From Candidatus Frackibacter sp. WG13 (GTDB lineage: Bacteria; Bacillota; Halanaerobiia; Halobacteroidales; Acetohalobiaceae), in the NCBI RefSeq assembly GCF_900114655.1, contig NZ_FOTT01000007.1, positions 1-64,000 on the forward strand: a stretch of 64,000 bases of DNA, written 5' to 3'. A model generated the notes under the pieces. The model did not search any database, was not told the origin of the DNA, and saw nothing but the letters and a program-made list of their open reading frames with translations. The translations under genes were made by a program, and so were the position numbers. Positions 11,430 through 17,596 of the stretch are shown here, in pieces. Position 1 is the stretch's first letter; each line of letters starts with the position of its first letter.

Positions 11430-11438
11430 ACATGAACA

Positions 11439-11474
11439 AAACTGGTGGTTTAATAGTTAACCACCAGTTTTTTA
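11439..11474 (+). terminator. Terminator of the unknown gene
   Basis: AAACTGGTGGTT pairs with AACCACCAGTTT across a short loop, followed by TTT on the plus strand, 10 nt after the stop at 11429. Confidence 0.9.
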
Positions 11475-11604: not shown

Positions 11605-12111
11605 TTGAAAAAGAAGATTTTAATTTTAACTGTACTAGCTTTTGTATTATTACTAAGTAGTAATGTACTAGCAGCAGGTACACCAACAATCCCTAAGTCG
11701 CATCCCGTCTTTAAAGACAGCATGGATGCCACAAAATGTGCAGATTGTCACAAAGTTCCAGAAGAAATGAATACTAAGGACGGTGCATTCTGTAACCAAT
11801 GTCACCAGTTCGGCCCTGCACACAAGACAGGACCTAAGCCTGCTCACCAGGTAGAGCTTGACTGGAAGGTAAAGGACTGTGAAAATTGTCACCGTGCTCA
11901 TACGGGACCTAATCCGACTCACCAGATTGCTACTGACACTAAAAATGCTGATTTATGTGTTAAGTGTCACGTACCTGGTAACAGACCATCTAGTGAATTA
12001 GCAACAGCATTTTGTGCTAGATGCCATAACTTAGGTGACCCTAAGCAACATATTAGCCTTAAGGGTAAGAAGGCTAATGTCTGTGTAAGATGTCATAAAA
12101 GAGAAGACTAA
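11605..12111 (+). CDS. Exported hexaheme cytochrome c
   Basis: 168 residues. A signal peptide (KKK, hydrophobic core, cleavage near ANVLAAG around residue 23) directs export. Six CxxCH heme-binding motifs begin at about residues 45, 63, 92, 118, 137 and 160, filling the small mature protein; extra His residues (HKTGPKPAH, PTHQ) could be distal ligands. The start is TTG at 11605 with a strong GGGGGTG site 6 nt before it. The gene has no partner in its transcript. A GEMM-like RNA is encoded on the opposite strand just beyond the shared terminator. Probable role: periplasmic or surface electron carrier for the octaheme/barrel conduit at 14758-17596; this is inference from proximity. Confidence 0.92.
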   Translation: MKKKILILTVLAFVLLLSSNVLAAGTPTIPKSHPVFKDSMDATKCADCHKVPEEMNTKDGAFCNQCHQFGPAHKTGPKPAHQVELDWKVKDCENCHRAHTGPNPTHQIATDTKNADLCVKCHVPGNRPSSELATAFCARCHNLGDPKQHISLKGKKANVCVRCHKRED

Positions 12112-12137
12112 ACTCTCTTAAATTTTTATTATTTTAA

Positions 12138-12182
12138 AACAAAAGCCCTATTCCTCACTTATAAAGAGGAATAGGGCTTATT
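12138..12182. terminator. Bidirectional terminator between cytochrome gene and GEMM-like RNA
   Basis: AGCCCTATTCCTC (12144-12156) pairs with GAGGAATAGGGCT (12166-12178). A/T-rich flanks on both sides let it end the cytochrome transcript on the plus strand and the small RNA on the minus strand. Confidence 0.88.
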
Positions 12183-12342
12183 GTATAATATCACACCTAT
12201 ATCCCTTTCGGTAGTTTGACAATCATAGCTTTATACCTTAGATTCAAACCTTTGCGACTTTATCTTTCAATAAATGTGCCATTATCGAGGAATATCATAA
12301 GACTTTTATTTTATTGTTAATTCTACATATTTATTCTTCTTT
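12138..12342 (-). ncRNA. Stand-alone GEMM-like (c-di-GMP-I / cGAMP) riboswitch RNA
   Basis: On the minus strand, 12295-12199 folds as a GEMM aptamer. The closing stem is ATATTCC (12295-12289) with GGGATAT (12205-12199). A hairpin at 12274-12259 is capped by a GAAA tetraloop. The near-invariant GTCGCAAAG follows (12258-12250; usual form GACGCAAAG). A second hairpin GTTTGA/TCAAAC carries UCUAAG...UAUGA, matching the 11-nt GAAA-tetraloop receptor, then CTACCGAAA. A consensus promoter (12349-12377) lies upstream and a terminator (12138-12182) downstream, but no minus-strand gene follows for over 1.7 kb. Read-through would be antisense to the hexaheme cytochrome gene. Ligand class cannot be assigned from sequence alone. 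Confidence 0.8.
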
Positions 12343-12348
12343 TCTAAT

Positions 12349-12377
12349 ATTATAACAAATTACTTAGATTTTATCAA
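12349..12377 (-). promoter_or_regulatory. Promoter of the GEMM-like RNA
   Basis: Minus strand TTGATA (12372-12377), 17-nt spacer, TATAAT (12349-12354). Predicted start is near 12342, about 47 nt before the aptamer. Confidence 0.8.
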
Positions 12378-12402
12378 GCATTATTTTATCAAAATAGATA
12401 TT

Positions 12403-12436
12403 AAAAATCTCTGAGGAATATTCCTCAGAGATTTTT
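12403..12436. terminator. Terminator of MetF-like gene
   Basis: Perfect 34-bp palindrome, AAAAATCTCTGAGGAAT and its complement, 23 nt after the stop on the minus strand. Symmetric A/T ends allow termination in both directions. Confidence 0.88.
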
Positions 12437-12458
12437 AATCAAAATTTATTATATATTA

Positions 12459-14033
12459 CTAAGCCTTCTTACTTTTACCTTCGCTTTCACTACCTGGAGG
12501 CGTAATTCCCAATCTCTTTGCTGAATGATCACGTCCCATAAAGAAGTTAAGCCAAGAAGCAGTATGATGAAAATCCCAGTTAACCGGTGGAATCTGATAT
12601 TCTTGTAACTGCTTTTCTTCACCATATGCTTTTAATCTATCATAGACTCGTACATATAGACATTTCTTCTCATTAGGATATACCTCGCAATAACCATCTC
12701 TACTACCGCCACAAGCTCCGTTACGCTGATTTTTAGGGCATTGTGACATTGGACAGATATATGCTAAGTCGAATAATGCACAATCTCCACACTCTTGACA
12801 ATCATTAGAAACAGTTTTAATAACTCGTTCCATAAATTCAAATGGTTTTTCTAGTGAACTATCGTCAACAGATTTACATAGATACTGCATCGGCTTAAAG
12901 AACGGACTATCTGGTTCAAATAGAGCATGATGCATAACTCTAAATGTTCTATTCATTAAACCCTTGCTCGGTTTATGAGTTCTAGCAGCTGGCTGTTTTG
13001 TATTTAAGCCAGTTTCCTCGTCCTTTTCGAAGTAATAAAATCCGTCTTCCATTGGAAATTCAAATTCATGAATATAATCTTGCCAGTTAGGTGCTAGCTC
13101 TTCACCTTTATCTACAATAAACTCTACATCTTCAATCCCCATACCGTGTCCACCTAAGTGAACTCCAGCATAGCCCATACCTTTCATGTAAGCATACATC
13201 TTAGCTGCCCTCATTAAACGAGCATGCTTACCTTTATCATCAGCTTCTTTTTCTTCAGCCAATTTATCGACTAACTTATCAGTTACTACACAACCAGGAA
13301 TACGATTAGCGTTCATTGCTCTACTTGCGCCATAAGATAATACATAAACGTTACCAATAACCGGAATATCCCAATCATTCATTTCAATAAATTGAATTAA
13401 TTCATGAAACTTACGAGCATCGTATCCTAACTGAGGAATAATAAATTTAGCTCCTGCTTCTATCTTCTTCTTCAGCTTATAGTACTGAACCATCTGTTCA
13501 GATTCTAATTGCTTAAATGGTGAAACTGCTGCTCCTGGGAAGAAGTTAGTCTCTTGTAACTCAACACTTCTACCAAAAGCATCCTTATACTTTAATCCAT
13601 CATTCAAATCCGTAACCATTTCTAAAACTTGAGTAGGGTCCATGTCATATACAGGTCTTGAACGACTATCATATCCCCCCACTGGATAGTCTCCGGTCAT
13701 AACCAAAATATTATTAACTTCTTCCCTTTCTAGAGAATACAAAAAACTCTCCATCTGGTTACGGTTTTTGTCCTTACAAGTAAAATGCACTAAAGCTGGA
13801 ATTCCAATTTCTTCAGCCTTCATACCTAAGTATTCAGCTGAAATCGCTGGATTCCCTCCAGGATTATCAGTAATAGTTATCCCATCAACTTTGTCACTTT
13901 CTGCTGCCTGCTCTGCTCCTTCAAATATAAATTCTTGATTTGCTTCTCGTGCCCCTCGTCCAGGTACTAGCTCCCACGTTACAGTAAATTCATCCTTGTT
14001 AAGAATAGACTCCTTAAGCTTATTCTGTCCCAT
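12459..14033 (-). CDS. Methylenetetrahydrofolate reductase with C-terminal MetV-like Zn/Fe-S domain
   Basis: 524 residues. Residues of about 1-300 resemble the MetF TIM barrel (VTWELVPGRG, DGITITDNPGG, NILVMTGDYP, IPQLGYDA). The C-terminal quarter holds the Cys-rich MetV-like domain: CQECGDC, ICPMSQCPKNQRNGACGG and a further Cys in DGYCEVYP and KKCLY. MetF reduces methylene-THF to methyl-THF. In anaerobes MetV partners MetF in the methyl branch of the Wood-Ljungdahl pathway or methyl-group supply; here both parts lie in one chain. It stands alone with its own terminator. Electron donor and physiological direction cannot be read from sequence. Confidence 0.85.
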   Translation of the reverse strand: MGQNKLKESILNKDEFTVTWELVPGRGAREANQEFIFEGAEQAAESDKVDGITITDNPGGNPAISAEYLGMKAEEIGIPALVHFTCKDKNRNQMESFLYSLEREEVNNILVMTGDYPVGGYDSRSRPVYDMDPTQVLEMVTDLNDGLKYKDAFGRSVELQETNFFPGAAVSPFKQLESEQMVQYYKLKKKIEAGAKFIIPQLGYDARKFHELIQFIEMNDWDIPVIGNVYVLSYGASRAMNANRIPGCVVTDKLVDKLAEEKEADDKGKHARLMRAAKMYAYMKGMGYAGVHLGGHGMGIEDVEFIVDKGEELAPNWQDYIHEFEFPMEDGFYYFEKDEETGLNTKQPAARTHKPSKGLMNRTFRVMHHALFEPDSPFFKPMQYLCKSVDDSSLEKPFEFMERVIKTVSNDCQECGDCALFDLAYICPMSQCPKNQRNGACGGSRDGYCEVYPNEKKCLYVRVYDRLKAYGEEKQLQEYQIPPVNWDFHHTASWLNFFMGRDHSAKRLGITPPGSESEGKSKKA

Positions 14034-14757: not shown

Positions 14758-16797
14758 TTAAAATCCGCCTTCTAAGCCTAAAGTAATGATGTCTGCTGAA
14801 TAATCGTTAGCGTTTGTACCGTATAATGCTACATCACTTGGCGTCTCATCGTATTCAACACGACGTAAATCTAAAGTGACATCCAAGTTATCATAGATAG
14901 GTACAGCTTTAGTTAAGTTAAGACCAAAGTCTGTATACTCATTCTTGAAACTTTCATTATTAATATTAGATACAGATTCTTGACCTTCAATGTAATTACC
15001 ATAGAAATTGGCACTGAAGTCTTCACTTGCTTGATATGTTGCATTCACGTTATAAAGATCGTTATTGACTTTAGTAGTATATTCAAGGATTGTACCTGAA
15101 CCATCCGAGTTAAAACCATTTACTGCTTCGAAAGTTTGGTCAGAATAAGATAATCCCAAGTCTAAATTAACTACTGGCTGATAATTCACACTAAATGTTT
15201 GAATTTCATTTTCTCTTTTAGCATCCTCATAATGCCCTGCTGGATAACCAACATATGCTCCATAATGAGAGCCATCATCTTCTTCCTTTCTATATTTACT
15301 AGTTAATTTTAAATTGTCAAGTACTTCCCATTCAACTTCAAAATCAATTTCTTCATTATCAGCTATTTCTGTTCCTTCTTCTTCAATTGCTGTATCTTTA
15401 TAATCCAAGTCGAGTTTGACTGTCTCTATCGGATTATATAAAAAGCCTAGTTGATAACCATCTTCTGTAGTTTCTCCTGGTCCATGTGCTCCTTTATCTT
15501 TCTCTTTAGTATAAAGATAACCTACCTCTGCCTTTAGTTCATTATTTAAATAGTGTTCTCCTTTAACGTAATACTTATCTTTTTGATTATAGAAATTCTT
15601 ATTCAATTTCTTCCACTCACCTGAACCATCTCCTGGCCAAGCTGATATATGATCATCAGATGTGTCATTAGGGGTTCCATTATCAAAATAATAAGCAAAG
15701 TAATCAATGTTATTTTCTGTTTCTGTACTTTTATACCCACTGTGTAAATAAGTATCCTTATTAATTAATAACGTAGTGTCCATACTGCCTATGAAACTAT
15801 CTGAATTTGTATTACCATAAGTAGTCTTTCTTTCTTGAACTGTTTGTGTAGTATCCACTAAATTACCATTATTATCATATGCATTGTGACTATAAGCATC
15901 AATATATCCTGCTACAGAGAATGCTCCATCTCCTCGAGCATCTTTCAAACTTAATGTTACATCAAAACGATCATTAAATATCTTATGAACTTTTAACTGA
16001 TCAATTCCTCGGTCTAAACTTCTTGTTTCGTGATCTTGATACTGCCCATCTTTATCTCCTATATTATCTGTTCCCAATGCTTCCGCCGGTTCCTGTAATA
16101 CACTACCAGTATAACTATCTTGAGTATGAGCTAAATAAAAATCATATCCAGCATAACTAAACTCAGTACCTACAGTTGCATCTTGACTCGTTTCATTAAT
16201 TGGCGTATTCATTAAAAATTCAGCATGAGTTTCATATAAATCTTTTGTTAATACTGATATGCCTTCTCTATCTAACTTTCTTTTAGAAATAAAGAATTTA
16301 GGTAACCCTTCTGGAGTAATTGTCAAATGCATTGAGTCTTGTGTTCTAGTAAAATCATAAGTATGGTGGTCAGCATCAGCACCATTTTCATAGACATAAT
16401 CTCTTTCACTACGTTTAACTCCAAAATTGTAAAGACCATACTCTTTTAATTTCAATTCATAAGTAGGCGTTGGATCTCCTACATCTCCTAGACTGAAACG
16501 AGCTAAATCTAAATATCTATCAGCTTTATCAGTTGTTGGAACAAAAGTAGCATCTAAATTTAATAGACGTAAACCATCATCTAAATTAATGTCTGAATTA
16601 TAAACTCCTTTATTTCCATCAACACTGACTGACCGCAAACCTAATTTATAATCTACCGCTTCCAGCTTAAGTGCTGAAGTATCCAGTTTAGCGTTTGGCG
16701 TCCCTGCCTTCATCACATTAATATCTTTAGCATGTACAGGAACTACTAAAATACTTAAAACCAATATTAAAGTCAATGAACATTTTATTTTCTTCAT
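14758..16797 (-). CDS. Outer-membrane beta-barrel, MtrB/PioB-like porin of an electron conduit
   Basis: 679 residues with a signal peptide (MKKIK, hydrophobic core, cleavage near VHAKD, residue 24). The mature part is a long series of alternating polar/aromatic strands with acidic loops, and the chain ends in ...LGLEGGF, the C-terminal Phe expected of an outer-membrane barrel. Length matches MtrB/PioB-type porins (about 650-720). It follows an octaheme cytochrome gene by 28 nt in one transcript, the arrangement of MtrAB, PioAB and DmsEF systems in which the barrel holds the cytochrome across the outer membrane. The CxxC seen near the N-terminus of Shewanella MtrB is absent, so family assignment rests on context, size and barrel pattern. 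Confidence 0.7.
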   Translation of the reverse strand: MKKIKCSLTLILVLSILVVPVHAKDINVMKAGTPNAKLDTSALKLEAVDYKLGLRSVSVDGNKGVYNSDINLDDGLRLLNLDATFVPTTDKADRYLDLARFSLGDVGDPTPTYELKLKEYGLYNFGVKRSERDYVYENGADADHHTYDFTRTQDSMHLTITPEGLPKFFISKRKLDREGISVLTKDLYETHAEFLMNTPINETSQDATVGTEFSYAGYDFYLAHTQDSYTGSVLQEPAEALGTDNIGDKDGQYQDHETRSLDRGIDQLKVHKIFNDRFDVTLSLKDARGDGAFSVAGYIDAYSHNAYDNNGNLVDTTQTVQERKTTYGNTNSDSFIGSMDTTLLINKDTYLHSGYKSTETENNIDYFAYYFDNGTPNDTSDDHISAWPGDGSGEWKKLNKNFYNQKDKYYVKGEHYLNNELKAEVGYLYTKEKDKGAHGPGETTEDGYQLGFLYNPIETVKLDLDYKDTAIEEEGTEIADNEEIDFEVEWEVLDNLKLTSKYRKEEDDGSHYGAYVGYPAGHYEDAKRENEIQTFSVNYQPVVNLDLGLSYSDQTFEAVNGFNSDGSGTILEYTTKVNNDLYNVNATYQASEDFSANFYGNYIEGQESVSNINNESFKNEYTDFGLNLTKAVPIYDNLDVTLDLRRVEYDETPSDVALYGTNANDYSADIITLGLEGGF

Positions 16798-16825: not shown

Positions 16826-17596
16826 TTATTCTTCTAGCATCATGAAATCTTCATTAGAACCATGAATAGTTCCGTGACAATTTGTACAGTTAGCAAAATC
16901 AGTAGTGAAAGCTGCATTACTATCTACGGCAGGATTAGCATCTAAATAATAATAATGCCAGCTTTTTACTTCGCCGTGACAACTTAAACATAACGTGTCA
17001 GTTTTTTGATACTTTAACATAAATCGATTCTGACTACCGTGTGGCGTATGACAACTTGCACAACCCTCTTCAGCTACTACAGAACTATGTTGATTTACAA
17101 ATGGACCTTCTTTTTCAGCATGACAACTCACACAAGTTTCATTTGGAATGTCATTAGCTCTTCCAGCTAGTGGAGTATGCTTCTTTAATGACGCATTTAC
17201 GTCACCACCTGGACCTCCGTGTGGAGTGTGACAGCTTGAGCAAGTCATTTCACCACTCTCTAAGTTATGACTATTTCTCTGAGCAAATTTCAACTTCACA
17301 TCCTCGTGACAACTATAACATAACTCTGGCTCCTCCATCTTTAATGTAGCCTTGTTAGATTGAGTTGTCTTCTTGTCATGAGATTCGTGACAATCCATAC
17401 AATTCACATCATTTAAACTGTGCTGTGAACGTTTAAATTGGAATTGAGTCTTTACCTTACCGTGGCAGGATAGACAAGCTTCTGAAGCTTTTGCCTGAGC
17501 TTCTACATCTGCCGGCATCGCAACTACTGCTGCTAATGCCAATACTAAAACAAAACTAAAACTTAACAACAGATTAACTTTTTTAGTACTTTTCAT
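16826..17596 (-). CDS. Periplasmic octaheme cytochrome c, MtrA/DmsE-like
   Basis: 256 residues. Signal peptide with cleavage near VEAQA (about residue 34). Eight CxxCH motifs start at about residues 41, 66, 93, 119, 155, 179, 203 and 237. CxxCHTPHG repeats and paired distal His residues (SQHS, NSHN, NQHS, IHGS) are typical of the MtrA/DmsE/PioA family. Classical members carry ten hemes, so this is a shortened octaheme version. It is the first gene of a two-gene operon with the barrel and has a good AGGAGG site before its ATG. Two inverted repeats of a Crp/Fnr type lie about 320-370 bp upstream. Likely role: moving electrons through the barrel to an outside acceptor. Confidence 0.9.
   Translation of the reverse strand: MKSTKKVNLLLSFSFVLVLALAAVVAMPADVEAQAKASEACLSCHGKVKTQFQFKRSQHSLNDVNCMDCHESHDKKTTQSNKATLKMEEPELCYSCHEDVKLKFAQRNSHNLESGEMTCSSCHTPHGGPGGDVNASLKKHTPLAGRANDIPNETCVSCHAEKEGPFVNQHSSVVAEEGCASCHTPHGSQNRFMLKYQKTDTLCLSCHGEVKSWHYYYLDANPAVDSNAAFTTDFANCTNCHGTIHGSNEDFMMLEE

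Follow-up and report, generated by a model that had tools for sequence, protein, structure and literature searches.

A free-standing c-di-GMP-I riboswitch between convergent genes of Candidatus Frackibacter sp. WG13, probably a displaced Spo0E-type leader

The window analysed here is the 64,000-nucleotide stretch at the start of contig NZ_FOTT01000007.1 of Candidatus Frackibacter sp. WG13. Its minus strand carries a complete small transcription unit (12377-12136), situated between a methylenetetrahydrofolate reductase (MTHFR) gene and the 3' end of a convergent cytochrome gene. The unit and its surroundings comprise the following features:

11438..11471, minus strand: next terminator-like hairpin in the direction of read-through
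11605..12111, plus strand: convergent gene for a hexaheme c-type cytochrome of 168 aa, with six CXXCH motifs
12143..12179, minus strand: intrinsic terminator with a 14-bp stem, its U-tract running to about 12136
12196..12206, minus strand: P1 3' strand AGGGAUAUAGG, able to act as anti-terminator by pairing with the 5' arm of the terminator (duplex of -12.1 kcal/mol)
12199..12206, minus strand: P1 3' strand AGGGAUAU, forming an 8-bp P1
12207..12290, minus strand: c-di-GMP-I (GEMM-I) riboswitch aptamer, RF01051
12288..12295, minus strand: 5' strand of the P1 closing stem, AUAUUCCU
12349..12377, minus strand: promoter TTGATA-17-TATAAT with an extended -10 (TG), matching the consensus at 11 of 12 positions
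12400..12439, minus strand: terminator of the MTHFR gene itself, which isolates the unit from upstream transcription
12459..14033, minus strand: MTHFR gene, with a C-terminal DUF5981

In random 150-nt stretches of matched composition, a promoter match of 11/12 is reached about 1% of the time; once the TG is counted, for a score of 12, the figure falls to about 0.05%. Transcription would start near 12342 on the minus strand. At the other end of the unit, the terminator arms (12179-12166 and 12156-12143) pair at all 14 positions in standard fashion, with none broken. No co-oriented gene lies behind the terminator, as the next gene is that of the cytochrome on the plus strand, and a search past the terminator for a hidden small ORF with both a start and a ribosome site found none. 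The promoter, terminator and free-standing position proposed for this RNA in a preliminary description are all present in the sequence; the span given there, 12138-12377, encloses a real unit but stops just short of the end of the U-tract.

The same description had recognized a GEMM-type aptamer, and the Rfam covariance model RF01051 agrees, matching over its full length (1-87) and scoring 63.6 bits where the cut-off is 35 (E 4.1e-10). The conserved core elements GGCA, GCAAAG and UACCGA and the paired stems are present in the RF01051 alignment; the unit resembles c-di-GMP-I riboswitches in its full-length match, its P1, P2 and P3 stems, its core residues and its OFF-switch terminator, and differs in that no gene follows it. 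The folding energy of the unit lies at z -3.6 relative to shuffled sequences, mostly owing to the terminator; with the terminator removed, z is only -0.24, so that the aptamer assignment is carried by the covariance model and by covariation rather than by energy. When 43 pairs were compared across the window unit and five relatives, 12 had changed on both sides, and standard pairing was found in 89% of cells, as opposed to 40-56% for controls in which the partners were slid; the covariation score was 0.372, versus 0.10-0.17 with slid partners. The window copy contains just two non-standard pairs, one of them a G-A common to most relatives.

The specificity base, which corresponds to Vc2 G20, was located through the RF01051 alignment and a published residue list (PMC7288161); it is a G, at 12280 on the minus strand. 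A G20A change shifts GEMM-I riboswitches towards cGAMP binding (PMC7288161). Ten GGDEF matches were found in the genome, and the Asp of the motif (GD) is kept in all seven domains with a readable motif, the other three being unreadable at that position. We take this position to be Ser or Thr, in place of Asp, in Hypr enzymes; no Hypr-type GGDEF was present among the seven readable domains. In the solved GEMM-Ib cGAMP switch, the specificity base is an A. Because of the G at the specificity base and the canonical readable GGDEF domains, c-di-GMP is the likely ligand judging from sequence, and cGAMP specificity was rejected on the same two grounds. The proposed connection to the cGAMP-responsive GEMM-Ib switches of Geobacter consequently falls away: the likeness extends to the fold and to a cytochrome gene nearby, but those switches lead their genes and carry A where this unit carries G.

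The P1 5' strand AUAUUCCU recurs within the terminator 5' arm CUAUUCCUC, giving the P1 3' strand two alternative partners. The resulting anti-terminator duplex, at -12.1 kcal/mol, compares with a shuffle mean of -9.0, although 10% of shuffles equal it; at the related loci C2:20478, C18:284437, C33:13048 and G002:C16, the corresponding figure is 0-2%. When nascent RNA was modelled without ligand, the anti-terminator reached 0.53 and P1 0.05. In this model, the P1, anti-terminator and terminator strands compete in the manner of a transcription OFF switch, and class I switches are OFF switches in C. difficile (PMC11477304). We consider it very probable that an intact c-di-GMP OFF switch is encoded here. 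Upon binding of c-di-GMP, P1 would form, the terminator would fold and an RNA of about 200 nt would end near 12136. In the absence of ligand, pairing of the P1 3' strand with the terminator 5' arm would instead permit partial read-through, and the extended RNA, antisense to the cytochrome gene, would continue as far as the hairpin at 11438-11471.

The cytochrome gene ends some 30-35 nt past the terminator hairpin, its stop lying 96 nt from the end of the aptamer, and an RNA extended to the 11438-11471 hairpin would span the whole of it. That the unit points into the 3' end of a hexaheme cytochrome gene, as first described, holds: the two are convergent and all six CXXCH motifs are there. The terminator could be kept for ending the cytochrome mRNA on the plus strand, where its U-tract is poor. 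An 84-codon frame antisense to the cytochrome gene was considered as a conserved shadow ORF and rejected, because stop codons break it up in the sister genome (G002). Elsewhere in the window, an eight-heme DmsE-like cytochrome gene (16826-17596, minus strand) lies beside a gene for a 679-aa protein (14758-16797, minus strand) that has no Pfam, NCBIfam or PDB sequence match and an AlphaFold model with a pLDDT of 28.8; the two could form a porin-cytochrome pair.

Ten GEMM-I switches, the window unit included, were identified in this genome with RF01051. Four of the ten (at loci L077, L081, which holds two, and L082) precede ORFs, about 55 codons long, with a match to the Pfam Spo0E-like family (PF09388, E 1e-10 to 1e-11). 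The nearest relative of the window unit at the DNA level is the Spo0E leader C2:43260 (75% over 182 nt); the unit groups with the Spo0E leaders, and its P1 and terminator are laid out alike, yet no Spo0E-like ORF was found behind it. A separate leader in the window, that of ribosomal protein L21 (34428-34504, minus strand), matches RF00559 with 40.8 bits.

Among the 61 related genomes, the cytochrome gene occurs only in the window genome and in G002. The MTHFR-cytochrome locus of G002 is syntenic and its two genes are likewise convergent, but the gap between them is only about 90 bp long, with a single hairpin, and the riboswitch is absent. The cytochrome gene is therefore a poor candidate for a natural neighbour of the riboswitch, since the sister genome has the same gene pair without it; the comparison with this one sister would fit either a gain here or a loss there. 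At a different place in G002 (C16:26313; L118 1501-1720), a Spo0E-type leader is followed by what, read by eye, appears to be a spo0E remnant, RLDKKIDF; this looks like an orphan riboswitch in the making, orphaned by gene loss.

Free-standing switches of this kind form a minority. Sequences were read at 148 GEMM-I places with context in the 61 genomes, and by this reading 10 are clear orphans and about 4 doubtful. A published survey counted 152 antisense-facing c-di-GMP switches against 2,554 in sense orientation, the highest tendency of any riboswitch family (PMC9943018). The rule that GEMM RNAs sit before genes thus holds normally, but an orphan or antisense minority (152 versus 2,554; 10-14 of 148) is known. 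The window unit adds one more case to the c-di-GMP riboswitches already on record as orphans or as facing a gene in antisense. Antisense action has been demonstrated experimentally for a SAM switch at ubiG-mccBA in C. acetobutylicum and for a cobalamin switch at pocR in Listeria (PMC9943018). In C. difficile, an orphan c-di-GMP-I switch lies between CD2517 and CD2517.1 (PMC11477304), and the antisense antitoxins RCd11 and RCd12 are gated by c-di-GMP-I switches (PMC7699646); these share with the window unit a c-di-GMP-I switch that lacks a protein gene or has an RNA behind it, although RCd11 and RCd12 face prophage toxin genes and have a second promoter. Four further loci (L240, L246, L249 and L250) carry a c-di-GMP-I switch directly 5' of small ORFs resembling secreted peptides, which end in NPITVAGD or NPIAVAGK; each of these loci faces a larger convergent gene.

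A distinct set of orphans was found in a related family (f5), where one free-standing c-di-GMP-I switch is present in six of six genomes (L199, L277, L200, L203, L014 and L021, at G015:C4:13168, G018:C105:9179, G022:C30:101165, G024:C37:21661, G026:C80:15310 and G020:C159:41375, respectively). The order at these loci is riboswitch, terminator, AATTCCTCCTTATCAATCCTCCTTTCTA, second terminator and convergent gene, the last being presumably pgsA-like in five of the six, a name given from reading the sequence and not from a profile. This inserted segment of 28 nt, AATTCCTCCTTATCAATCCTCCTTTCTA, shows 99% identity within the genus and 96% across the family, compared with 82 and 78% for the aptamer and 52 and 46% for the sequence behind the segment. 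It holds two CCTCCTT modules that resemble the 3' tail of 16S rRNA, which reads GGCTGGATCACCTCCTTTCT in two complete relatives; the 16S-tail pattern had no match in the draft genomes. Each f5 genome has a single copy of its 22-nt core at up to one mismatch, always at these loci; the copies detected elsewhere in the class all have three mismatches, and a reversed control gave roughly the same number. Predicted accessibility of the segment is only modestly above that of the rest of the RNA. No Rfam family scored above its cut-off on this unit, and a full-text literature search returned no paper combining these features. From its sequence, the f5 unit is likely a c-di-GMP-gated sRNA with two anti-Shine-Dalgarno modules, and the set looks like an undescribed ligand-gated small RNA. 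A weaker parallel to it is seen in the second orphan of the window genome, a c-di-GMP-I-GGC switch (L078; G000:C31:44461-44537, minus strand) adjoined by a GGDEF gene, and in its sister-genome relative (L107; G002:C17:57245-57330, plus strand): in both, CCCCCTT follows soon past the terminator and a convergent gene is faced.

Because the window unit groups with the Spo0E leaders, because the sister locus lacks a riboswitch and because G002 retains what looks like a spo0E remnant, we reasoned that the unit descends from a displaced Spo0E-type leader, an origin that we regard as likely; in the simplest scenario, a leader of this type would have been copied or moved to this locus without its gene, or the gene would have been lost afterwards. 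The fuller reading, in which the unit is such a leader whose OFF switch now stands alone between convergent genes, is somewhat less secure but still probable, and among the options raised in the preliminary description the displaced leader is the best evidenced. Whether the unit still acts is a separate matter. A recently orphaned leader might be transcribed and switch while changing nothing, a non-functional relic; the restriction of the unit to one lineage among the genomes compared and the gene-loss intermediate in the sister genome both speak for this, but all helices are intact and carry compensatory changes at 25-37% divergence from relatives, which indicates constraint until recently at least. 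We hold the relic to be a substantial minority possibility. Slightly less weight, and only a tentative belief, is given to selection of the unit as an antisense-acting riboswitch that controls the cytochrome: at low c-di-GMP, read-through would lower cytochrome expression by way of antisense RNA or polymerase collision, and at high c-di-GMP termination would free it. The switch parts are intact, the distance from the unit to the 3' end of the convergent gene is below the 500 nt of the published definition, and c-di-GMP switches are the riboswitch family most enriched for facing genes in antisense (PMC9943018); c-di-GMP-gated antisense RNAs exist, moreover, in RCd11 and RCd12 of C. difficile (PMC7699646). 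Like the antisense-acting riboswitches of Serrano-Gutierrez and Merino (2023, PMC9943018), the unit sits on the 3' side of a convergent gene, with antisense read-through governed by a ligand-controlled terminator (predicted, in the window unit), but it departs from them in that the gene pair is not conserved, the sister species having the cytochrome without the riboswitch, and in having a multiheme cytochrome as its putative target. A leader that loses its gene can, besides, end up convergent by chance, and the same survey puts pseudogene and transposase cases down to fortuitous events (PMC9943018).

The ligand-controlled antisense RNA of the preliminary description accordingly keeps its geometry and intact parts, but with an unconserved pair it ranks below the displaced leader. 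A physiologically relevant antisense effect on the cytochrome is, from sequence, doubtful, and we think it unlikely that the unit serves as a functional antisense RNA gene under c-di-GMP control, tying a multiheme cytochrome to c-di-GMP as one of several uses that the class makes of free-standing c-di-GMP riboswitches as RNA genes, with conserved anti-Shine-Dalgarno sRNAs as another. If the displaced leader has any present effect, it would most likely be in cis, with c-di-GMP relieving the cytochrome gene of antisense interference. The nucleotide-binding sponge also suggested for the unit has a precedent in merRNA of Bdellovibrio bacteriovorus, whose reservoir role was inferred from extreme expression (PMC3627812). 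Both are free-standing non-coding RNAs in which the c-di-GMP riboswitch is followed by no ORF, and the window unit has a strong promoter; merRNA differs, however, in being 445 nt long and massively expressed. Two other GEMM leaders of the same genome, C2:43260 and C10:468, have promoters that match at least as well, and the genome contains nine c-di-GMP-I switches besides the window unit, leaving a c-di-GMP reservoir unsupported and, in our estimate, quite improbable. Less probable still, to the point of being barely tenable, is that the unit forms the head of a trans-acting small RNA as in f5. Such units do exist in all six f5 genomes, and possibly at C31:44461 of the window genome, but the stretch from the window unit to the cytochrome gene has neither a C-rich or anti-Shine-Dalgarno segment nor another terminator, and the only C runs are some 550-570 nt into the read-through; with an f5-type tail absent, this explanation is largely refuted by the sequence.

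The comparison with the Spo0E leaders and the sister genome exemplifies how a riboswitch loses its gene. Antisense control has been proposed for many c-di-GMP switches and tested in few; if read-through matters at this locus, it would put a candidate electron-transfer cytochrome under the control of a c-di-GMP switch by means of antisense transcription. The occurrence of c-di-GMP switches ahead of genes for Spo0E-like phosphatases, for its part, suggests a possible direct input of c-di-GMP into the entry to sporulation in this genome.
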